A program made the translations under genes and the position numbers. Under the pieces are notes generated by a model. That model was not told where the DNA came from. It was given only the letters and a program-made list of their open reading frames with translations, and ran no database searches. A DNA stretch of 64,000 nt, from the NCBI RefSeq assembly GCF_029338355.1, contig NZ_CP119802.1, forward strand, positions 2,542,001 through 2,606,000. Reading direction: 5' to 3'. Source of the stretch: Halosegnis marinus. Lineage in GTDB: Archaea; Halobacteriota; Halobacteria; Halobacteriales; Haloarculaceae. This document shows positions 41,488 to 48,448 of this stretch, in pieces; the first letter of the stretch is position 1; each line of letters begins with the position of its first letter.

Positions 41488-42097
41488 GCCGTTCGGCGGC
41501 CCGGTCGAACGCCTCGCGGGTATCGACGCTCTCGAAGGAGTCGAGCGAGCCGCGCGCTTCGAGGGCCGCCCGCTCGACGACGGTCCAGTCGAGGTCGTCG
41601 AGGGGGGCGAGTATCTTCCGGTCGCCGCGGGCGAGCGCCCGGTCGCAGGCGTCGGCCATCGCCCCCGCGCGGTAGGCAGCGTGGGTGGTCGCGTACCACT
41701 CGTCGGGGCGCGGAACCGCCGCGTCGCGGCCGGCCGCGCGTTCGAGACACAGGTCCGCGAGCGCGGGGTCGAGGAAGGGCATGTCGCAGGCCGCGACGAA
41801 GGCGTACTCGGCGTCCAGCCGCGCGGCGCCGCGACACGCCGTCCTGATACCCGCCATCGGTCCCTCGTCCGTCTCGGGGTCCTCCGCGACCGTCACGGGG
41901 TTCGGGTAGCCGTCCATGGCGGCCTCCACCTCGGCGCGCTGGTCGGGCCGGCAGTTCACGACGAGCGCGTCCGTCACCCCCACGAGGCGGTCCGCGACCC
42001 GGCGTATCATGGGGGTGCCGGCGAGGACGGCCGTGGCCTTGTCGGCGTCGCCGAACCGCGTCGAGCGGCCCCCGGCGACGATGGCTCCCGCGCGCAT
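41477..42097 (-). CDS. mobA: Molybdenum cofactor guanylyltransferase
   Basis: A 206-residue nucleotidyltransferase that attaches GMP to molybdopterin, forming the bis-MGD cofactor of enzymes such as formate dehydrogenase. The nucleotide loop is IVAGGRSTRFGDADKA, the PMIRR and ACDMPFLDP motifs are in place. Its length is normal. In this window the expected client is the formate dehydrogenase at 59-62 kb. Convergent with yqeC. Confidence 0.93.
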   Translation of the reverse strand: MRAGAIVAGGRSTRFGDADKATAVLAGTPMIRRVADRLVGVTDALVVNCRPDQRAEVEAAMDGYPNPVTVAEDPETDEGPMAGIRTACRGAARLDAEYAFVAACDMPFLDPALADLCLERAAGRDAAVPRPDEWYATTHAAYRAGAMADACDRALARGDRKILAPLDDLDWTVVERAALEARGSLDSFESVDTREAFDRAAERLSR

Positions 42098-42168
42098 ACC
42101 CGGCCTCGACCGCGGGCGGGCAAAGGCGTGTCGTCCCGGCGACGGCGAGAACGCCCGGGGTCGGACGG

Positions 42169-42175
42169 TTATTTG
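42169..42175 (+). promoter_or_regulatory. TATA element TTATTTG of the thiolase locus
   Basis: Centred 27 nt upstream of the ATG at 42199, which opens a six-codon ORF rather than the thiolase itself. Confidence 0.6.
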
Positions 42176-42198
42176 CCCCTGGGCGCGGTGGCTCCGGT

Positions 42199-42219
42199 AT
42201 GGACGAGGTGACGCCGTGA
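42199..42219 (+). other. Six-codon leader ORF (MDEVTP) coupled to thiolase
   Basis: The leaderless ATG predicted from the TATA box opens this tiny frame. Its TGA (42217-42219) overlaps the thiolase GTG (42216-42218) as GTGA, so ribosomes that end here could restart on the thiolase. Confidence 0.35.
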
Positions 42220-43391
42220 CCGACGCCTACGTCGTCGGCGCGGGCCAGTCGGACTACGGGGCCTTCCCCGACGAGTCGTACCGCTCGCTGTTCGCCACCG
42301 CTTACGAGGACGCCCTCGACTCGGTGCCGGACGGGATGGACCCCGACCGCATCGACGAGGCCGTCGTCGGCACGCTCGGCGTCGGCGGCCGCCAACTGGG
42401 CCTCCCCGGCCCGGCCGTGACCGAACACGTCGGCCTCCACGGCGTGCCGACGACGCGCGTCGAGAACGCCTGTGCCGCGTCGGGCTACGCGGTCCGACAG
42501 GCCGTGCAGGCCGTGAAGTCCGGGATGGCCGACGTGGTCCTCGCGGGCGGCGTCGAGGTGATGAACGACGCCTCCGGCGACGCGGTGCGATACTGGCTCG
42601 GCGTCTCCGGCGAGACGGAGTGGGAGCGGCTCTCGGGGACGACCTTCTCGGGGGTGTACGCGCAGATGGCCTCCGCGCACATGCGCGAGTACGGCACGAC
42701 GGTCGAACAGCTCTCGCACGCCGCGGTCAAGAGCCACGAGAACGGCGCGAAGAACCCCCACGCGCAGCTCGGCTTCGAGTGTACGCTGGAGGACGCCGTG
42801 AACGCGCCGACGGTCGCGGACCCGCTCACGCTGTACCACTGCTGTCCCACGAGCGACGGCGCGGCCGCCGTCCTCGTCGTGAGCGAGGACGTGGTCGAGG
42901 AGTTCACCGACGACCCCATCCGCGTCGCCGGGGTCGGGGCTTCCTCCGACCGCGTCGGCCTGTTCCAGCGCGAGACGTACACGAACGTCCCGGCCTCGCG
43001 GCGTGCGGGCGAGGGGGCCTACGAGATGGCCGGCATGAGCGCCGACGACGTGGACTTCGCGGAGGTCCACGACTGCTTCTCCATCGCCGAACTCGCCGCC
43101 TACGAGGACCTCGGCTTCTGCGAGCAGGGGAAGGCGGGCGAGTTCGTCGAGTCGGGCGCGACCCGCCTCGACGGCGACCTCCCGGTCAACACCTCCGGCG
43201 GGCTGAAGTCGAAGGGCCACCCCATCGGCGCGACCGGTGCCGGCCAGGTGGTCGAGGTGTTCGAACAGCTCTCGGGCCACGCGGGCGAGCGCCAGCTCAA
43301 CGACCCGCGCGTCGGGCTGACACACAACGTCGGCGGCTCGGGCGGCGCCGCGGTCGTCCACCTGTTCGAGCGGGAGGAGGTGGCGCGATGA
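42216..43391 (+). CDS. Thiolase family protein (SCP-x/DitF-like)
   Basis: A 391-residue thiolase-fold enzyme of the acyl-CoA acetyltransferase group common in archaea. The acylated cysteine is Cys86 in VENACAASG, EVHDCFSIAELAAYEDLG lies near 285, and the GHP motif is GGLKSKGHPIGATG. The second catalytic cysteine of biosynthetic thiolases is not obvious at the C-terminus (LTHNVGGSGG). GTG start is set by coupling to a leader ORF. It is followed by an HMG-CoA-synthase-like/DUF35 fusion, as in archaeal thiolase-HMGS complexes held together by a DUF35 protein. Confidence 0.88.
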   Translation: MTDAYVVGAGQSDYGAFPDESYRSLFATAYEDALDSVPDGMDPDRIDEAVVGTLGVGGRQLGLPGPAVTEHVGLHGVPTTRVENACAASGYAVRQAVQAVKSGMADVVLAGGVEVMNDASGDAVRYWLGVSGETEWERLSGTTFSGVYAQMASAHMREYGTTVEQLSHAAVKSHENGAKNPHAQLGFECTLEDAVNAPTVADPLTLYHCCPTSDGAAAVLVVSEDVVEEFTDDPIRVAGVGASSDRVGLFQRETYTNVPASRRAGEGAYEMAGMSADDVDFAEVHDCFSIAELAAYEDLGFCEQGKAGEFVESGATRLDGDLPVNTSGGLKSKGHPIGATGAGQVVEVFEQLSGHAGERQLNDPRVGLTHNVGGSGGAAVVHLFEREEVAR

Positions 43392-43450
43392 GCGCCACCG
43401 AACCCGCGAGCGGGAGGAACGACACGGGAGCGGAGGTGGCGCGATGAGCG
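43376..43450 (+). repeat. 19-bp direct repeat flanking a 19-codon micro-ORF
   Basis: GGAGGTGGCGCGATGAGCG occurs at 43376-43394 and again at 43432-43450, 56 nt apart. Each copy carries a ribosome-binding site and an ATGA stop/start overlap. A further GAGCGGGAGGA match precedes each. The unit looks like a duplicated gene junction. Confidence 0.8.
43388..43447 (+). other. 19-residue micro-ORF between thiolase and HMGS-like gene
   Basis: It starts in the thiolase stop (ATGA) and ends in the start of the next gene (ATGA). It reads MSATEPASGRNDTGAEVAR and its last four residues copy the end of the thiolase. It is probably a by-product of the junction duplication. Confidence 0.35.
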
Positions 43451-44844
43451 TCGGAATCCGCGCCGTCGGCGCGTACGCGCCCCGGTTCCGCGTGACCGCC
43501 GAGGCGTTCGAGGAGGCGTGGGGCTCGTTCGACGCGCCGGGCGTCGAGACGAAGGCCGTCCCCGACGCCGACGAGGACGCGCTGACGATGGGGTACGAGG
43601 CGGCGACGCGCGCGCTCGACGCGGCCGAGGTCGCCCCGGAGGAAGTGGACTTCCTCGCGTTCGCCTCCACCACCCCGCCGCTCGCGGAGGAGGACCTCAC
43701 CGTCCGGCTCGGCTCCCTGCTCGGGGTCGAGAGCGACGCGACCCGCCACGTCTTCACCGGGAGCACGCGGGCCGGGACGCGCGCGCTCGCGGCGGCGCTC
43801 GACGCCGGCCCCGAACGGGGACTGGTCGTCGTGGCCGACTGCCCGCGCGGCGAGCCGCACGACGCGCGCGAACACGCGGCCGGGGCGGGGGCGGCGGCGT
43901 TCGTCGTCGGTCCCGAGGCGCCGCTCCGGGTCACGGAGCGGGTCGAACACGCCGACGCCTATCCGGGGACGCGGTTCCGCCGGACGGGCGAGGAGCGCGT
44001 CGGGAGCATCGACGCGGGCGTGTACGACCGGAACGCGTTCGTCCGCCCGCTCGCGGCCGCCGTCGAGGACATCGAGGTCGGTGACCTCGACGCCGCGGCG
44101 ATACAGATGCCCGACGGCAAACTCCCCTACCGCGCCGCGGGCGCGATGGGCCTCGACAACGGGACGGTCCACGCGGGCGGCACCGTCTCGACGCTCGGGG
44201 ACACGGGCGCGGCCTCGGTGCCGCTCGGACTCGCGTCGGCACTCTCGGAGGGCGCGGAACGGCTGCTCGCCGTGTCGTGGGGCTCCGGTGCGGGGGCCGA
44301 CGCGTTCCTGCTCGCCGCCGAGGGCGAGGTGCCGGTTTCGCTCGCACTCGACGGGGACGAGGAGGTCAGCTACGCCGAGTACCTCCGCCTGCGCGGAGAG
44401 ATAACGGCCGAGGAGCCGGACGGCGGCGGGGCGTACGTCTCCGTGCCGACGTGGCACCGCTCGCTCCCGCAGCGCCACCGGCTCGTCGCCGGGCGCTGTC
44501 CGGAGTGCGGGACGTACACCTTCCCGCCGGAGGGTGCCTGTCGCGGCTGCGACACGCTGGTCGAGTTCGAGGAGGTCGCGCTGTCCGGCGACGGTACCGT
44601 CGAGGCACAGACGGAGATAGGAAAGGGCGGCGCGCCCCCGGAGTTCGCGGAACTGCAGTCGCGCTCGGGGGCGTTCGGCGTCGCCATCGTCGCGTTCGAC
44701 GCGCCCGACGGCGGCGAGGCGACCGCGCCGGCGATGGTCGTCGGGGACGCCGCCGTCGGCGACCGCGTGGAGGCGACACAGCGGCGCATCTACACGCAGG
44801 AGGGCGTCACCCGGTACGGGTTCAAGGTGCGGCGCGCCGAGTAG
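43444..44844 (+). CDS. HMG-CoA-synthase-like protein fused to DUF35 domain
   Basis: A 466-residue fusion. Residues 1-330 follow the hydroxymethylglutaryl-CoA synthase fold (GIRAVGAYAPRFRV start). Where the catalytic Cys should be, FACKAGT-like in real enzymes, it has GSTRAGT with Thr108; the catalytic Glu position reads ASTTP. Residues 340-466 are a DUF35 rubredoxin-like zinc ribbon (CPEC, CRGC) plus OB fold, the part that in archaea bridges thiolase and HMG-CoA synthase. It is therefore likely non-condensing, perhaps a scaffold or CoA-intermediate carrier for the upstream thiolase. Confidence 0.85.
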   Translation: MSVGIRAVGAYAPRFRVTAEAFEEAWGSFDAPGVETKAVPDADEDALTMGYEAATRALDAAEVAPEEVDFLAFASTTPPLAEEDLTVRLGSLLGVESDATRHVFTGSTRAGTRALAAALDAGPERGLVVVADCPRGEPHDAREHAAGAGAAAFVVGPEAPLRVTERVEHADAYPGTRFRRTGEERVGSIDAGVYDRNAFVRPLAAAVEDIEVGDLDAAAIQMPDGKLPYRAAGAMGLDNGTVHAGGTVSTLGDTGAASVPLGLASALSEGAERLLAVSWGSGAGADAFLLAAEGEVPVSLALDGDEEVSYAEYLRLRGEITAEEPDGGGAYVSVPTWHRSLPQRHRLVAGRCPECGTYTFPPEGACRGCDTLVEFEEVALSGDGTVEAQTEIGKGGAPPEFAELQSRSGAFGVAIVAFDAPDGGEATAPAMVVGDAAVGDRVEATQRRIYTQEGVTRYGFKVRRAE

Positions 44845-44921: not shown

Positions 44922-45488
44922 GTGTCGACCGACGACTACGTCTCCACGGAGGAGGCGAGGCCGGAGGACATCGTCGACGACCTCGCGGACCTGCGGGCGC
45001 AGGTCGCGGACCCCGAGGCCCGAGCGCAGGTGAACGACCTGATGGAACAGGTGGCGGACCTCCAGCCGCGGGGCCTCGGCAACGTCATCGTCGGGTTCGA
45101 CCGCACGGACCTCGCGGAGGCGGCGCTCGGCGCGCTGCTGTTCGGCATCCCGATGTTCGTCGAGGGCGGCACCAACGAGGTCGGCGCGTTCGTCGCCGAC
45201 CGGCCGCTGGCGTTCGTCGGTACGCTCGTCGCCGCGGTGCTTCTCGTCTACGGCATCGTCTACGTCGCGGACTTCCAGGACGTGCGCGTCCACGAGCCGC
45301 TGTTCGGGCTCGTCCCGCGGCGGCTGGCCGGCGTCGTCGGCGCGTCCTTCCTGGTCGCGGCGCTCGGGATGACGCTGTGGGGCCGGGTCGACTGGACCTC
45401 GCCGTGGCTCGCCGTCTGCACGGTGAGCGTCGCGTTCGTCCCGATGTCCATCGGCGCGGCGCTGGGTGACATCATCCCCGGGAGCTAG
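44922..45488 (+). CDS. DUF2391 family membrane protein
   Basis: A 188-residue protein with a hydrophilic N-terminal helix pair (about 1-60) and four membrane helices (about 66-85, 93-115, 133-152, 160-180). The arrangement ALGALLFGIPMFVEGG and GAALGDIIPGS fits DUF2391, a family of unknown function found in archaea and cyanobacteria. GTG start chosen because homology in character begins here. Its stop shares CTAG with the convergent CHAT gene. Confidence 0.78.
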   Translation: MSTDDYVSTEEARPEDIVDDLADLRAQVADPEARAQVNDLMEQVADLQPRGLGNVIVGFDRTDLAEAALGALLFGIPMFVEGGTNEVGAFVADRPLAFVGTLVAAVLLVYGIVYVADFQDVRVHEPLFGLVPRRLAGVVGASFLVAALGMTLWGRVDWTSPWLAVCTVSVAFVPMSIGAALGDIIPGS

Positions 45489-47521
45489 GGCAGGTCCGCG
45501 CGCTCGATGTCGGCGGACCACCGGAGGTCGCCGTCGACGAACACGGGGACGTCCTCCAGGGCGAAGAAGTCGAGGAGGGCGTCCGCTTCGAGCGTGATTT
45601 CCGTGTTCCGCGCGCCGAGGAGACAGGGCGTATCGGTCACGTTCCGAAGTCTCCCGACGGTCCCGATGTGCTCCGACCCACCGGGTGGGGCGTCGGCCGA
45701 GAGGACGTACCGGCCGTCCTCGGCCACCGCGAGCGAGCAGACCGTCGGGACGCCCTGCCGGTCCGCGACGGCGATGGTCGTCCCGTCGCCGACGGTGAGG
45801 TACTGTCCCCCGTTCCCGCCGCGTCGCCGGAGGAGCGCCCCGACTAGCCCGAGCGGGAAGTGGTTGCCGAGCAGCCGCGCGACGTCGATTCCGACCCCGG
45901 TCGCGTCGTGGGTGTTGATGTCCCCGAGCGTGACGACGCCGCCGCGCGCGCCGCTCTCGACGAGGCCGATACCGGCCCGGTACGAGTGGCAGGCGTTCAG
46001 GAGGAACACCGTCACCCCGACCGAGTCGAGGGTCGTGGGGTCGAGGCGGCCGTCCGGACACTCGAGTCCGTCGGCGGTCGCGTGTCCGATGAAGTGGAAG
46101 AAGGACGCTTCCTCGCGAAGCCGTGCGGCGAGTTGTGTCGTCGTCTGCTCGCCGTACACGTCGACGTCGTACTCGAGGCCAGCGCGCTCGCGGTATCGTC
46201 GCCGCACCTCCTCGACCTCCTCGGTCATCGACGGGTCGTTGCAGACGACGACCACGCGCTGGTCGAGCCGGGCGGTCCTGCCGCCCTCCGACGGTTGGAG
46301 CGACTTCGCCGCCCCCAACGGAACCCCGTCGCCGACCCACAGCGTCTCGGTGGCGTCGGCGGTCGGAACGTCGACGAACCGCTCTCCGTCGTCGACAGCC
46401 GTCGCGACGCTCCGGGTCGGTCCGGGCGGGTCGGCGAACCGCCGCAGTGCGACGGCGGCGGCCTCGGTCCCCTCGTACGACGGCGGCCGCGCGGGCCGGA
46501 CGAGCGAGAGGCGGGACACGAGGTCGGGCAACCGTTCGGCGTACTCGGCGTCGGGTTGGACGTACGCGACGGGTGACCACCGCGGACAGTGTGGTATCGT
46601 CCGCTCGGGATCCACCCCGAGGTACGCGGCCAACCGTTCCGGCTCCGGAGCCGCCGCGAGCCGCTCGAAGTCGAGCAGGGGATCGACGGCCGCTGCCTCG
46701 GCAGCGCCGGCCGCGTTGGGACCGTACTGTCGCGCCGCCACGTCACACATGAACACGTGCTTCAGCAGCCGCTCCGGGCTCTCGGTTGGGTTCGAGAGGG
46801 GGAACACGGCGTCGCGCACCTCGACGCGGGGGTCGGAACCCGTCACGAGCGGCGCGCCGAGGTAGTACGCGAGCGGCGCGGCCGTCATGACAGCCTCCGT
46901 CGTCGGTTCGACCGCGACGGTCGTCTCCGAGCGAGCCCGCGGCGCGGTCCCTCGAACGGACCGTTCGTTCCCGATCCGTAGGCGTGGCGGGTGCCCCCTG
47001 AGCGTCGGGTACGACCGGTCCGGCGAGTCCGTCTTGATCGCGCCGCCGAACCGGGAGACCGCCCACGCCAGTCCCTCGGGGTCGGGGGTCGTCGTCACCG
47101 TCCCGGTCGGAGTCTCGTGGTAGGAACGCACGCCGAGGCGGACTCGCGACGGCGCGTCGAAAACGATACTGGCGTCGTCGACCTCCGTCCGTATCTCGAA
47201 GGGTCCCGCTATCCGGACGTACACCTTCATCGAGCCGGAGAGCTCCACGAACCGGCGTCCGGGACCGAACCGTTCGCCGTCCGACTCCGTCAACCGGCAC
47301 ACGATCTCGCCGTCGTCGTCGCGGACGACCACGCCGGCGCTCGCGGTCCCCAACCCCCCCGTCGTGAACTCCCACGCGTTGTCGACCGGGAACGGGAACC
47401 CCTCGGGGGGAACCGGCGTCGGCTCCGTTCCGACCGGACCGAGCGACATCCGCGCGTTCATCGCCGGGTCGACGAGCGTCAGCCCGTCGGCCCCCGACCG
47501 CAGGTCGACGTACTCTCCCAT
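45485..47521 (-). CDS. CHAT-domain cysteine protease with large N-terminal region
   Basis: A 678-residue protein. The last 260 residues form a CHAT domain of the caspase-like clan: His480 in FHFIGHATADG and Cys511 in LLNACHSYRAG are the catalytic dyad. The strand VVVVCNDPSM (about 420) begins the domain, and VVTLGDINTHDATGVG follows the dyad. The first 410 residues contain no TPR or other named repeat; they are rich in beta strands and contain a short Cys-bearing FMCDVAARQYG segment. CHAT proteases elsewhere act in abortive-infection or gasdermin systems; no such partner is adjacent here. Its own TATA box (TTTATAC) gives a leaderless start. Confidence 0.85.
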   Translation of the reverse strand: MGEYVDLRSGADGLTLVDPAMNARMSLGPVGTEPTPVPPEGFPFPVDNAWEFTTGGLGTASAGVVVRDDDGEIVCRLTESDGERFGPGRRFVELSGSMKVYVRIAGPFEIRTEVDDASIVFDAPSRVRLGVRSYHETPTGTVTTTPDPEGLAWAVSRFGGAIKTDSPDRSYPTLRGHPPRLRIGNERSVRGTAPRARSETTVAVEPTTEAVMTAAPLAYYLGAPLVTGSDPRVEVRDAVFPLSNPTESPERLLKHVFMCDVAARQYGPNAAGAAEAAAVDPLLDFERLAAAPEPERLAAYLGVDPERTIPHCPRWSPVAYVQPDAEYAERLPDLVSRLSLVRPARPPSYEGTEAAAVALRRFADPPGPTRSVATAVDDGERFVDVPTADATETLWVGDGVPLGAAKSLQPSEGGRTARLDQRVVVVCNDPSMTEEVEEVRRRYRERAGLEYDVDVYGEQTTTQLAARLREEASFFHFIGHATADGLECPDGRLDPTTLDSVGVTVFLLNACHSYRAGIGLVESGARGGVVTLGDINTHDATGVGIDVARLLGNHFPLGLVGALLRRRGGNGGQYLTVGDGTTIAVADRQGVPTVCSLAVAEDGRYVLSADAPPGGSEHIGTVGRLRNVTDTPCLLGARNTEITLEADALLDFFALEDVPVFVDGDLRWSADIERADLP

Positions 47522-47544
47522 TCAAACGGAGTTCGTATCAGCGC

Positions 47545-47551
47545 GTATAAA
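47545..47551 (-). promoter_or_regulatory. TATA element TTTATAC for the CHAT gene
   Basis: Near-consensus box centred 27 nt upstream of ATG 47521. Confidence 0.7.
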
Positions 47552-47590
47552 TGTATGCTCCCGGAGCCGGTCCCGGTCCGGCCCGAAAGG

Positions 47591-47598
47591 GTCAAAAC
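47591..47598 (+). promoter_or_regulatory. TATA-like element GTCAAAAC for the TbsP-like gene
   Basis: Centred 26 nt before GTG 47621 and supports that start. Confidence 0.5.
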
Positions 47599-47620
47599 GG
47601 TTCCTCGAGTACTCTCGGAC

Positions 47621-48448
47621 GTGTCAGAGGAAGTATCCGCCGGGCAGCTCTCCACCGTGCTCCGTGACGCGCTCGCGGGCGGCGGAGCGGCGACGGTAAC
47701 GTGTACGGACGCGACGGTGTTGTTCGCCGCGGTCCGGGCGCTCGACGCGCTCGACGGGAGCGACAGGCCCGACGAGACGCGGCTTCTCGCGACCGACGGG
47801 GCGGCGAAGGCCGCCTCGCGCGACTTCGTGACGGCGACGGCGTTCGCCGACCTGCGGGCCGACGACGCCGCGGCGCTTCGGACGGTCGACCCCGCCGCCC
47901 TCCCCGAGCCGATGGTCGTGACCGACGAGAGCGTCGTCCCGGTGTTGCGGGGGGTTCCCTGCAAGAGCGTGACGGTGCGGGTGGCGGACACGACGCTCCG
48001 GAGCGAGTACACCGACGCGCTCTCGACACGGTGGGACGACGCCGAGGGGTACGACCTCGACTCGTACCCGCGCTCGGACTTCCTCGCGTCGTTGAGCGAC
48101 AAGTTCGGCGACGCGTTCCGCGCCGACTTCGAGCGGGCGCTCGCCGCGCCGGACACCCGCGGCCCGGGCGACGGGGTCGACCCCGTGGACCTGCTCGTTC
48201 TCGTCGCGGCGAAACACGGCGAGCAGTCGTACGAACTCAACCGCTGGGGCGAGTCGTTCGGCGTCGCGAGCGTCGGGAAGTTCTCGCAGTCGAAGCGCCG
48301 GCTGGAGGAGATCGGTCTCGTGGAGACGGAGAAGGTCCAGACCGGCTCCGTGGGACGGCCGCGCCAGCGGCTCCGCATCGGGCTGGACGACCTCGCGGGC
48401 GCGGACGCGGAGGAACTCGTGGGGGCGATGCGGTCCGTCCTCGGCTAG
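47621..48448 (+). CDS. DUF5821/TbsP-like transcription regulator
   Basis: A 275-residue protein with the layout of the haloarchaeal DUF5821 family, which includes TbsP, a regulator working with TrmB in sugar metabolism and cell shape of Haloferax. The N-terminal half is a Rossmann-like module (TVTCTDATVLFAAVRALDAL, LVVTDESVVPVLRGV), and the C-terminal half a winged helix (YELNRWGESFGVASVGKFSQSKRRLEEIGLVETEKV, then VGRPRQRLRIG). It is divergent from the CHAT gene across a 99-nt gap. The target genes are not known; autoregulation or control of CHAT is possible. Confidence 0.72.
   Translation: MSEEVSAGQLSTVLRDALAGGGAATVTCTDATVLFAAVRALDALDGSDRPDETRLLATDGAAKAASRDFVTATAFADLRADDAAALRTVDPAALPEPMVVTDESVVPVLRGVPCKSVTVRVADTTLRSEYTDALSTRWDDAEGYDLDSYPRSDFLASLSDKFGDAFRADFERALAAPDTRGPGDGVDPVDLLVLVAAKHGEQSYELNRWGESFGVASVGKFSQSKRRLEEIGLVETEKVQTGSVGRPRQRLRIGLDDLAGADAEELVGAMRSVLG

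Follow-up and report, generated by a model that had tools for sequence, protein, structure and literature searches.

A predicted CHAT-family cysteine protease encoded beside TbsP-type transcription regulators in haloarchaea

Introduction

Proteins that carry the CHAT domain (PF12770) share a caspase-hemoglobinase fold, HxxGH and NAC motifs, and a catalytic dyad of histidine and cysteine. In bacteria such proteins act in defence, as part of gasdermin systems, of Craspase, and of SAVED-CHAT. The CHAT protease of Craspase, Csx29, cleaves Csx30, an inhibitor of a sigma factor (PMC10028731), which provides a precedent for the control of transcription by a CHAT protease. The clan also includes separase and gingipain R, both of which carry an extra domain ahead of the protease, and cut sites vary among its members: separase cleaves after Arg, whereas the site in Csx30 follows a Leu (PMC9729208).

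In haloarchaea, extracts of Haloferax volcanii display a dominant caspase-4-like activity whose gene is not known and for which a housekeeping role has been suggested, and archaeal genomes have been said to harbor no clear caspase homologues (PMC3615174). Two further haloarchaeal proteins are relevant here: TbsP, which regulates central metabolism (PMC12366361) and was discovered through suppressors of trmB lethality (PMC11834397), and DdfA, a cell-shape factor of H. volcanii that carries a HalOD1 domain (PMC10869688). A literature search yielded no paper joining CHAT domains and haloarchaea, which is not proof that none exists. A CHAT-family gene of Halosegnis marinus and its relatives are the subject of this analysis; the gene lies in a stretch of 64,000 nucleotides (contig NZ_CP119802.1, positions 2,542,001 to 2,606,000), hereafter the window, and its features are collected in Table 1.

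Table 1. Features of the CHAT gene and its divergent neighbour, in window coordinates, with mean pairwise identity by protein region
Feature	Position	Strand	Identity	Basis or remark
CHAT-family cysteine protease gene, 678 aa, ATG start	45485..47521	-		ORF, family alignments, AF2 model, PDB fold matches
N-terminal beta-rich domain, residues 1-127	47141..47521	-	27%	DSSP on model; poorly conserved
Residues 128-222, best-conserved segment	46856..47140	-	52%	Motif GARS.HE.PA.TVTTT.DP.D ... SPERSYPTLRGHPP
Alpha/beta region, residues 223-421	46259..46855	-	36%	Together with 141-222: confident model, no PDB match
Predicted CHAT (caspase-fold) catalytic domain, residues ~422-600	45722..46258	-	46%	PF12770 matches in relatives, AF2 model, fold matches
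Codon of catalytic His480 (HFIGH motif)	46082..46084	-		Sequence, family alignments
Codon of catalytic Cys511 (LNACHS motif)	45989..45991	-		Sequence, family alignments
C-terminal beta-rich tail, residues 601-678	45488..45721	-	25%	Model, regional identity
Divergent CHAT/TbsP-like intergenic region, 99 bp	47522..47620	.		Sequence
TATA-like box for CHAT, TTTATA	47546..47551	-		25-30 bases upstream of ATG
TbsP-type transcription regulator, 275 aa, GTG start	47621..48448	+		PF23336 2.8e-34, PF19138 1.8e-15

A caspase-fold domain with an intact dyad

On its own, the window protein finds no family match in Pfam or NCBIfam and does not reach the PF12770 threshold; 12 of its 41 relatives match this family at E<0.1, the best at 3.7e-5. 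The AlphaFold2 model, built from a 65-row alignment, is confident (pLDDT 88, pTM 0.90), and a Foldseek search of the PDB with the full model returns SAVED-CHAT (PDB 8tl0) at E 2e-6, separase at 6e-6, gingipain R at 4e-5, and Csx29/TPR-CHAT at 5e-4. These fold matches, taken together with the sequence matches of the relatives, bear out the initial annotation, which had placed a caspase-clan CHAT domain in the C-terminal part of the protein, and by sequence and model CHAT is the appropriate name for this predicted domain. No match to Peptidase_C14, the family of metacaspases and orthocaspases, was obtained for the 41 family members, and a viral fold library gave a single match (E 1e-4), to an unnamed protein.

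The dyad, previously read as intact, is invariant in both family alignments, of 41 and 65 rows, and His and Cys are kept in 107 of 108 members overall. An invariant dyad within a caspase-clan fold argues for an active protease, and in the explanation favored below the protein is predicted, at about even confidence, to be a CHAT-group cysteine endopeptidase that works inside the cell. The CHAT domain could instead serve as a non-proteolytic binding scaffold, in keeping with the appearance of the transmembrane anti-sigma factor DdvA among the fold matches of the full model and with the existence of a distant relative devoid of both catalytic residues; the near-complete conservation of the dyad speaks against this idea, which we consider very improbable. 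The relative in question (L215, 6653-8677; 25% identity), located on a plasmid of Natrononativus amylolyticus just downstream of a gene for an ATP-binding protein, carries D and P in place of the catalytic H and C.

An N-terminal region common to the family

The N-terminal region is common to the whole family, as judged from its alignments, and residues 128-222 are better conserved than the catalytic domain itself. Searches of Pfam and NCBIfam with the window protein and its relatives revealed neither TPR, nor gasdermin, nor any other known domain within the N-terminal 420 residues. When modeled alone, residues 141-421 also give a confident structure (pLDDT 85, pTM 0.85), whose best PDB match (E 0.24) does not qualify as a fold match. 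The description of this region as lacking any described domain thus holds, and the structure prediction that had been proposed as a check delivers a confident model, with no known housekeeping fold at residues 141-421.

Three candidate relationships were considered and set aside. A pseudo-caspase domain, of the kind that precedes the proteases of Csx29 and separase, is unsupported at residues 141-421 by the same PDB search; homology of the middle region to TbsP or DUF7504 received hhalign probabilities below 1%, as did homology between TbsP and DUF7504.

These features set the window family apart from the systems introduced above. Compared with CHAT proteins at large, with which it shares fold, motifs and dyad, the family has no TPR and possesses its own haloarchaeal N-terminal region, and the window member falls below Pfam detection. 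As in Craspase (Csx29/TPR-CHAT, with Csx30 and CASP-sigma), a CHAT protease adjoins a transcription-control system; the window protein, however, is without TPR in Pfam and NCBIfam, its N-terminal model is beta-rich and then alpha/beta, there is no Cas7-11 or CRISPR type III-E context among its flanking genes, and the partner is an archaeal regulator of the TbsP type. SAVED-CHAT is the best PDB match of the full model, but the window protein has no SAVED match in Pfam, and residues 141-421 alone resemble nothing solved. Separase and gingipain R match the catalytic domain and share the presence of a preceding domain, which in the window protein is not detectably pseudo-caspase, and the window gene has no cohesin or secretion context. 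Unlike in bacterial gasdermin systems, no gasdermin is found among the identified genes that flank it.

A widespread and largely haloarchaeal family

The initial annotation had presented the gene as a single-gene archaeal form. Far from being an oddity, it belongs to a family present in 79 of the 97 related genomes searched, in one to eight copies each, and this genome holds three (contig C1, at 251456, 2519820 and 2587488). A scan of genome contigs with the window protein as single query found no relatives, an alignment query being needed; with such a query 561 relatives were found in GTDB genomes, of which the best 80 are all haloarchaeal. In a phylum-wide sample, the genomes with a match number 36 within the same order and four in one other family, presumably Methanocella, whose distant, non-haloarchaeal members retain IGH and NSC motifs. 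The CHAT family is therefore largely confined to Halobacteria, where it forms a large, multi-copy family that is present in most haloarchaea and is essentially undescribed. In plasmid records most copies are named hypothetical protein; the name CHAT domain-containing protein is used once, and so is caspase family protein.

Two of the non-haloarchaeal relatives (L226, 3809-5647; L227, 3734-5380) are single-copy genes in an ordinary context, adjoining dnaG, a GNAT acetyltransferase gene, and a UPF0146-like gene. Several copies of the family align as two or three neighbouring fragments (G334:C142 21798-23995; G278:C1 3333870-3336032; G250:C1 1277178-1279373), a pattern that suggests decayed or frameshifted paralogues.

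Recurrent pairing with TbsP-type regulators

The window gene had been taken for a stand-alone one, a reading that overlooked the divergent TbsP-type gene adjoining it. The open frame of this neighbour begins at 46991, overlapping the CHAT gene on paper and masking the real start. Both TbsP domains are present in its product, TbsP_N and HTH_TbsP_C scoring 57.7 and 118.3 bits against a cut-off of 27.1, but the protein reaches 171 bits on the NCBIfam TbsP model (NF047393), whose equivalog cut-off is 300, and is thus by sequence a paralogue of TbsP rather than its orthologue. The suggestion that the CHAT gene has a promoter of its own appears plausible, since TTTATA is positioned as expected for a leaderless transcript in haloarchaea, and a TATA motif lies at about the same place in the nearest relative. 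No convincing operator palindrome is conserved among the divergent regions compared.

In the tree of CHAT proteins, the window gene falls into a clade with support 0.98 together with a Halorarius copy (L033), a copy on a Halobaculum plasmid (L214), and copies in two further genomes (G004/L080 and G038/L044). All five members adjoin a TbsP-type gene, divergently in four cases and co-directionally in one. In a second clade the genes always come in the order glyA, CHAT, tbsP, ycaO, chromosomally syntenic across many genera, and Halococcus displays a third arrangement, with neither glyA nor ycaO nearby. True tbsP itself adjoins a CHAT gene in many genomes. The CHAT tree thus shows the pairing at three separate points or more. 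Across 94 genomes, a CHAT gene is found no more than 3 kb away from at least 40 of the 119 TbsP_C genes, where about 0.65 would be expected, although these pairs are not independent: in 36 of them tbsP is located downstream and in the same orientation, mostly in the syntenic arrangement. In this genome, both TbsP-type genes are neighbours of CHAT genes.

TbsP is found without CHAT in at most 18 of the genomes searched, and CHAT is therefore not needed for TbsP to act. The adjacency could also mean simply that TbsP controls transcription of the CHAT gene. As a separate observation, Halococcus thailandensis (G334, L136) shows an unusual expansion of TbsP-type genes, which number about nine (11 matches, with some genes split).

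Genomic surroundings and the question of defence

The initial annotation had proposed a death, defence, or processing protease. As an effector in regulated cell death or in anti-phage defence, the protein would be activated by infection or stress and would cleave essential proteins. The defence roles of bacterial CHAT proteins and the closeness of the model to SAVED-CHAT are consistent with such a function, as is the nature of the family, which is rich in paralogues, patchy by subfamily, and found on plasmids. The CHAT gene, moreover, evolves faster than the TbsP and GlyA genes syntenic with it (mean identity 45%, compared with 62% and 78%, respectively), as a defence gene would, and the broken copies keep the idea alive at lower weight.

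The surroundings of the gene, however, point elsewhere. Its flanking genes encode the TbsP-like regulator, DUF2391, a cystathionine synthase, an HMG-CoA-synthase-like protein, and a thiolase; further housekeeping genes of the window encode ribosomal proteins L21e, L7Ae and L24e, NDK, and an rRNA dimethylase. As had been noted at the outset, the identified flanking genes include no gasdermin or Csx29-type partner. PADLOC gives no match for the window protein and, among 41 relatives, a single weak CARF match; across the family, the neighbours are regulators rather than nucleases, pores, or infection sensors, and in one subfamily the chromosomal gene order is kept across many genera. We regard a death or defence effector as unlikely.

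A defence island was also considered and rejected: the families that PADLOC matches in the window (mad2, mad3, mad8, CARF-LolE and others) look generic for the most part, and the gene is not set within any recognisable system. The HMG-CoA-synthase-like protein (43444-44844) has a C-terminal zinc ribbon (zf-ChsH2) and falls well short of the cut-offs for HMG-CoA synthase; its gene adjoins that of the thiolase (41916-43391).

A proposed signal-controlled regulatory protease

The recurrent and variously arranged pairing with a regulator, the synteny of one clade, the housekeeping surroundings, and the lack of a PADLOC match lead us to favor, with confidence about evenly balanced, a signal-controlled regulatory protease that would work with, or under, the neighbouring transcription regulator. 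A ubiquitous, syntenic distribution combined with an N-terminal fold of known housekeeping role had been named as evidence against the initial proposal; the family is indeed near-ubiquitous and its glyA-CHAT-tbsP-ycaO subfamily syntenic, but no housekeeping role is known for the fold of the N-terminal region.

In the favored scheme, the TbsP-like protein would respond to a metabolic cue by way of its N-terminal domain and would control the 99-bp promoter region that the two divergent genes share. Its neighbour, the CHAT protease, may be kept inactive by its own conserved N-terminal region (residues 128-421), by a partner, or by both, until a metabolic or stress cue switches it on. The active enzyme would then make a limited cut in a regulatory protein, either the TbsP-like neighbour or another, resetting gene expression.

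Other subfamilies and the orphan caspase-like activity

Members of the family mostly adjoin a regulator of transcription or signalling. Clades other than those paired with TbsP are found next to genes for DUF7504, HalOD1-DUF7504, HalX, or response regulator-PAS proteins, and some copies have no recognised regulator adjoining them. The HalOD1-DUF7504 neighbours score 66 bits, slightly under the NCBIfam DdfA cut-off of 70; DdfA-like proteins of the DUF7504/HalOD1 kind accompany other CHAT subfamilies, that of Haloferax included, but none lies next to the window copy. In Haloferax, the CHAT gene starts about 50 bases after a DUF7504 gene, and the genes next to them, on the other strand, encode a HalX response regulator and a regulator of the TrmB type.

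The recurrence of TbsP, linked to central carbon metabolism, and of DUF7504/HalOD1/HalX signalling proteins beside CHAT genes suggests a testable role in regulated proteolysis. A tentative extension, possible though doubtful, is that haloarchaeal CHAT proteases, each with its own regulator (TbsP, DUF7504/HalOD1, HalX), form a general switch for regulated proteolysis, that the N-terminal region constitutes a novel control fold, and that the family accounts for the orphan caspase-like activity. If this were true, caspase-clan proteases would belong to ordinary archaeal signal transduction, beyond death or defence.

The relevance to that activity, raised in the initial annotation, has gained substance insofar as the family supplies concrete candidate genes for what has been measured for years in H. 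volcanii. The link is a lead only, since clan members cut after Arg or Leu, and it can be tested by a single deletion, as each of the eight Haloferax genomes tested contains exactly one family copy. The same two facts, an activity in H. volcanii with a suggested housekeeping role and one family member per Haloferax genome, would also suit a housekeeping caspase-like peptidase that adds to the high basal caspase-like activity of Haloferax and other haloarchaea and that has no special regulatory partner. This alternative appears rather unlikely, for the activity has been reported as widespread among diverse Archaea whereas the family is largely haloarchaeal, and specificity for Asp is not a given of the clan; the regulatory protease described above remains the preferred explanation.

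Two further arrangements were also observed. At L037 (4998-5921) and L070 (5369-6595), HalOD1-DUF7504 fusions lie directly upstream of CHAT genes, with gaps of 22 and -4 bases. At L031 and about 11 other loci, which represent another CHAT subfamily and include a second copy in this genome, the CHAT gene lies between two other families: upstream of it a conserved one of about 225 aa, which looks MBL-like by eye but finds no match in Pfam, and downstream of it one of about 137 aa.
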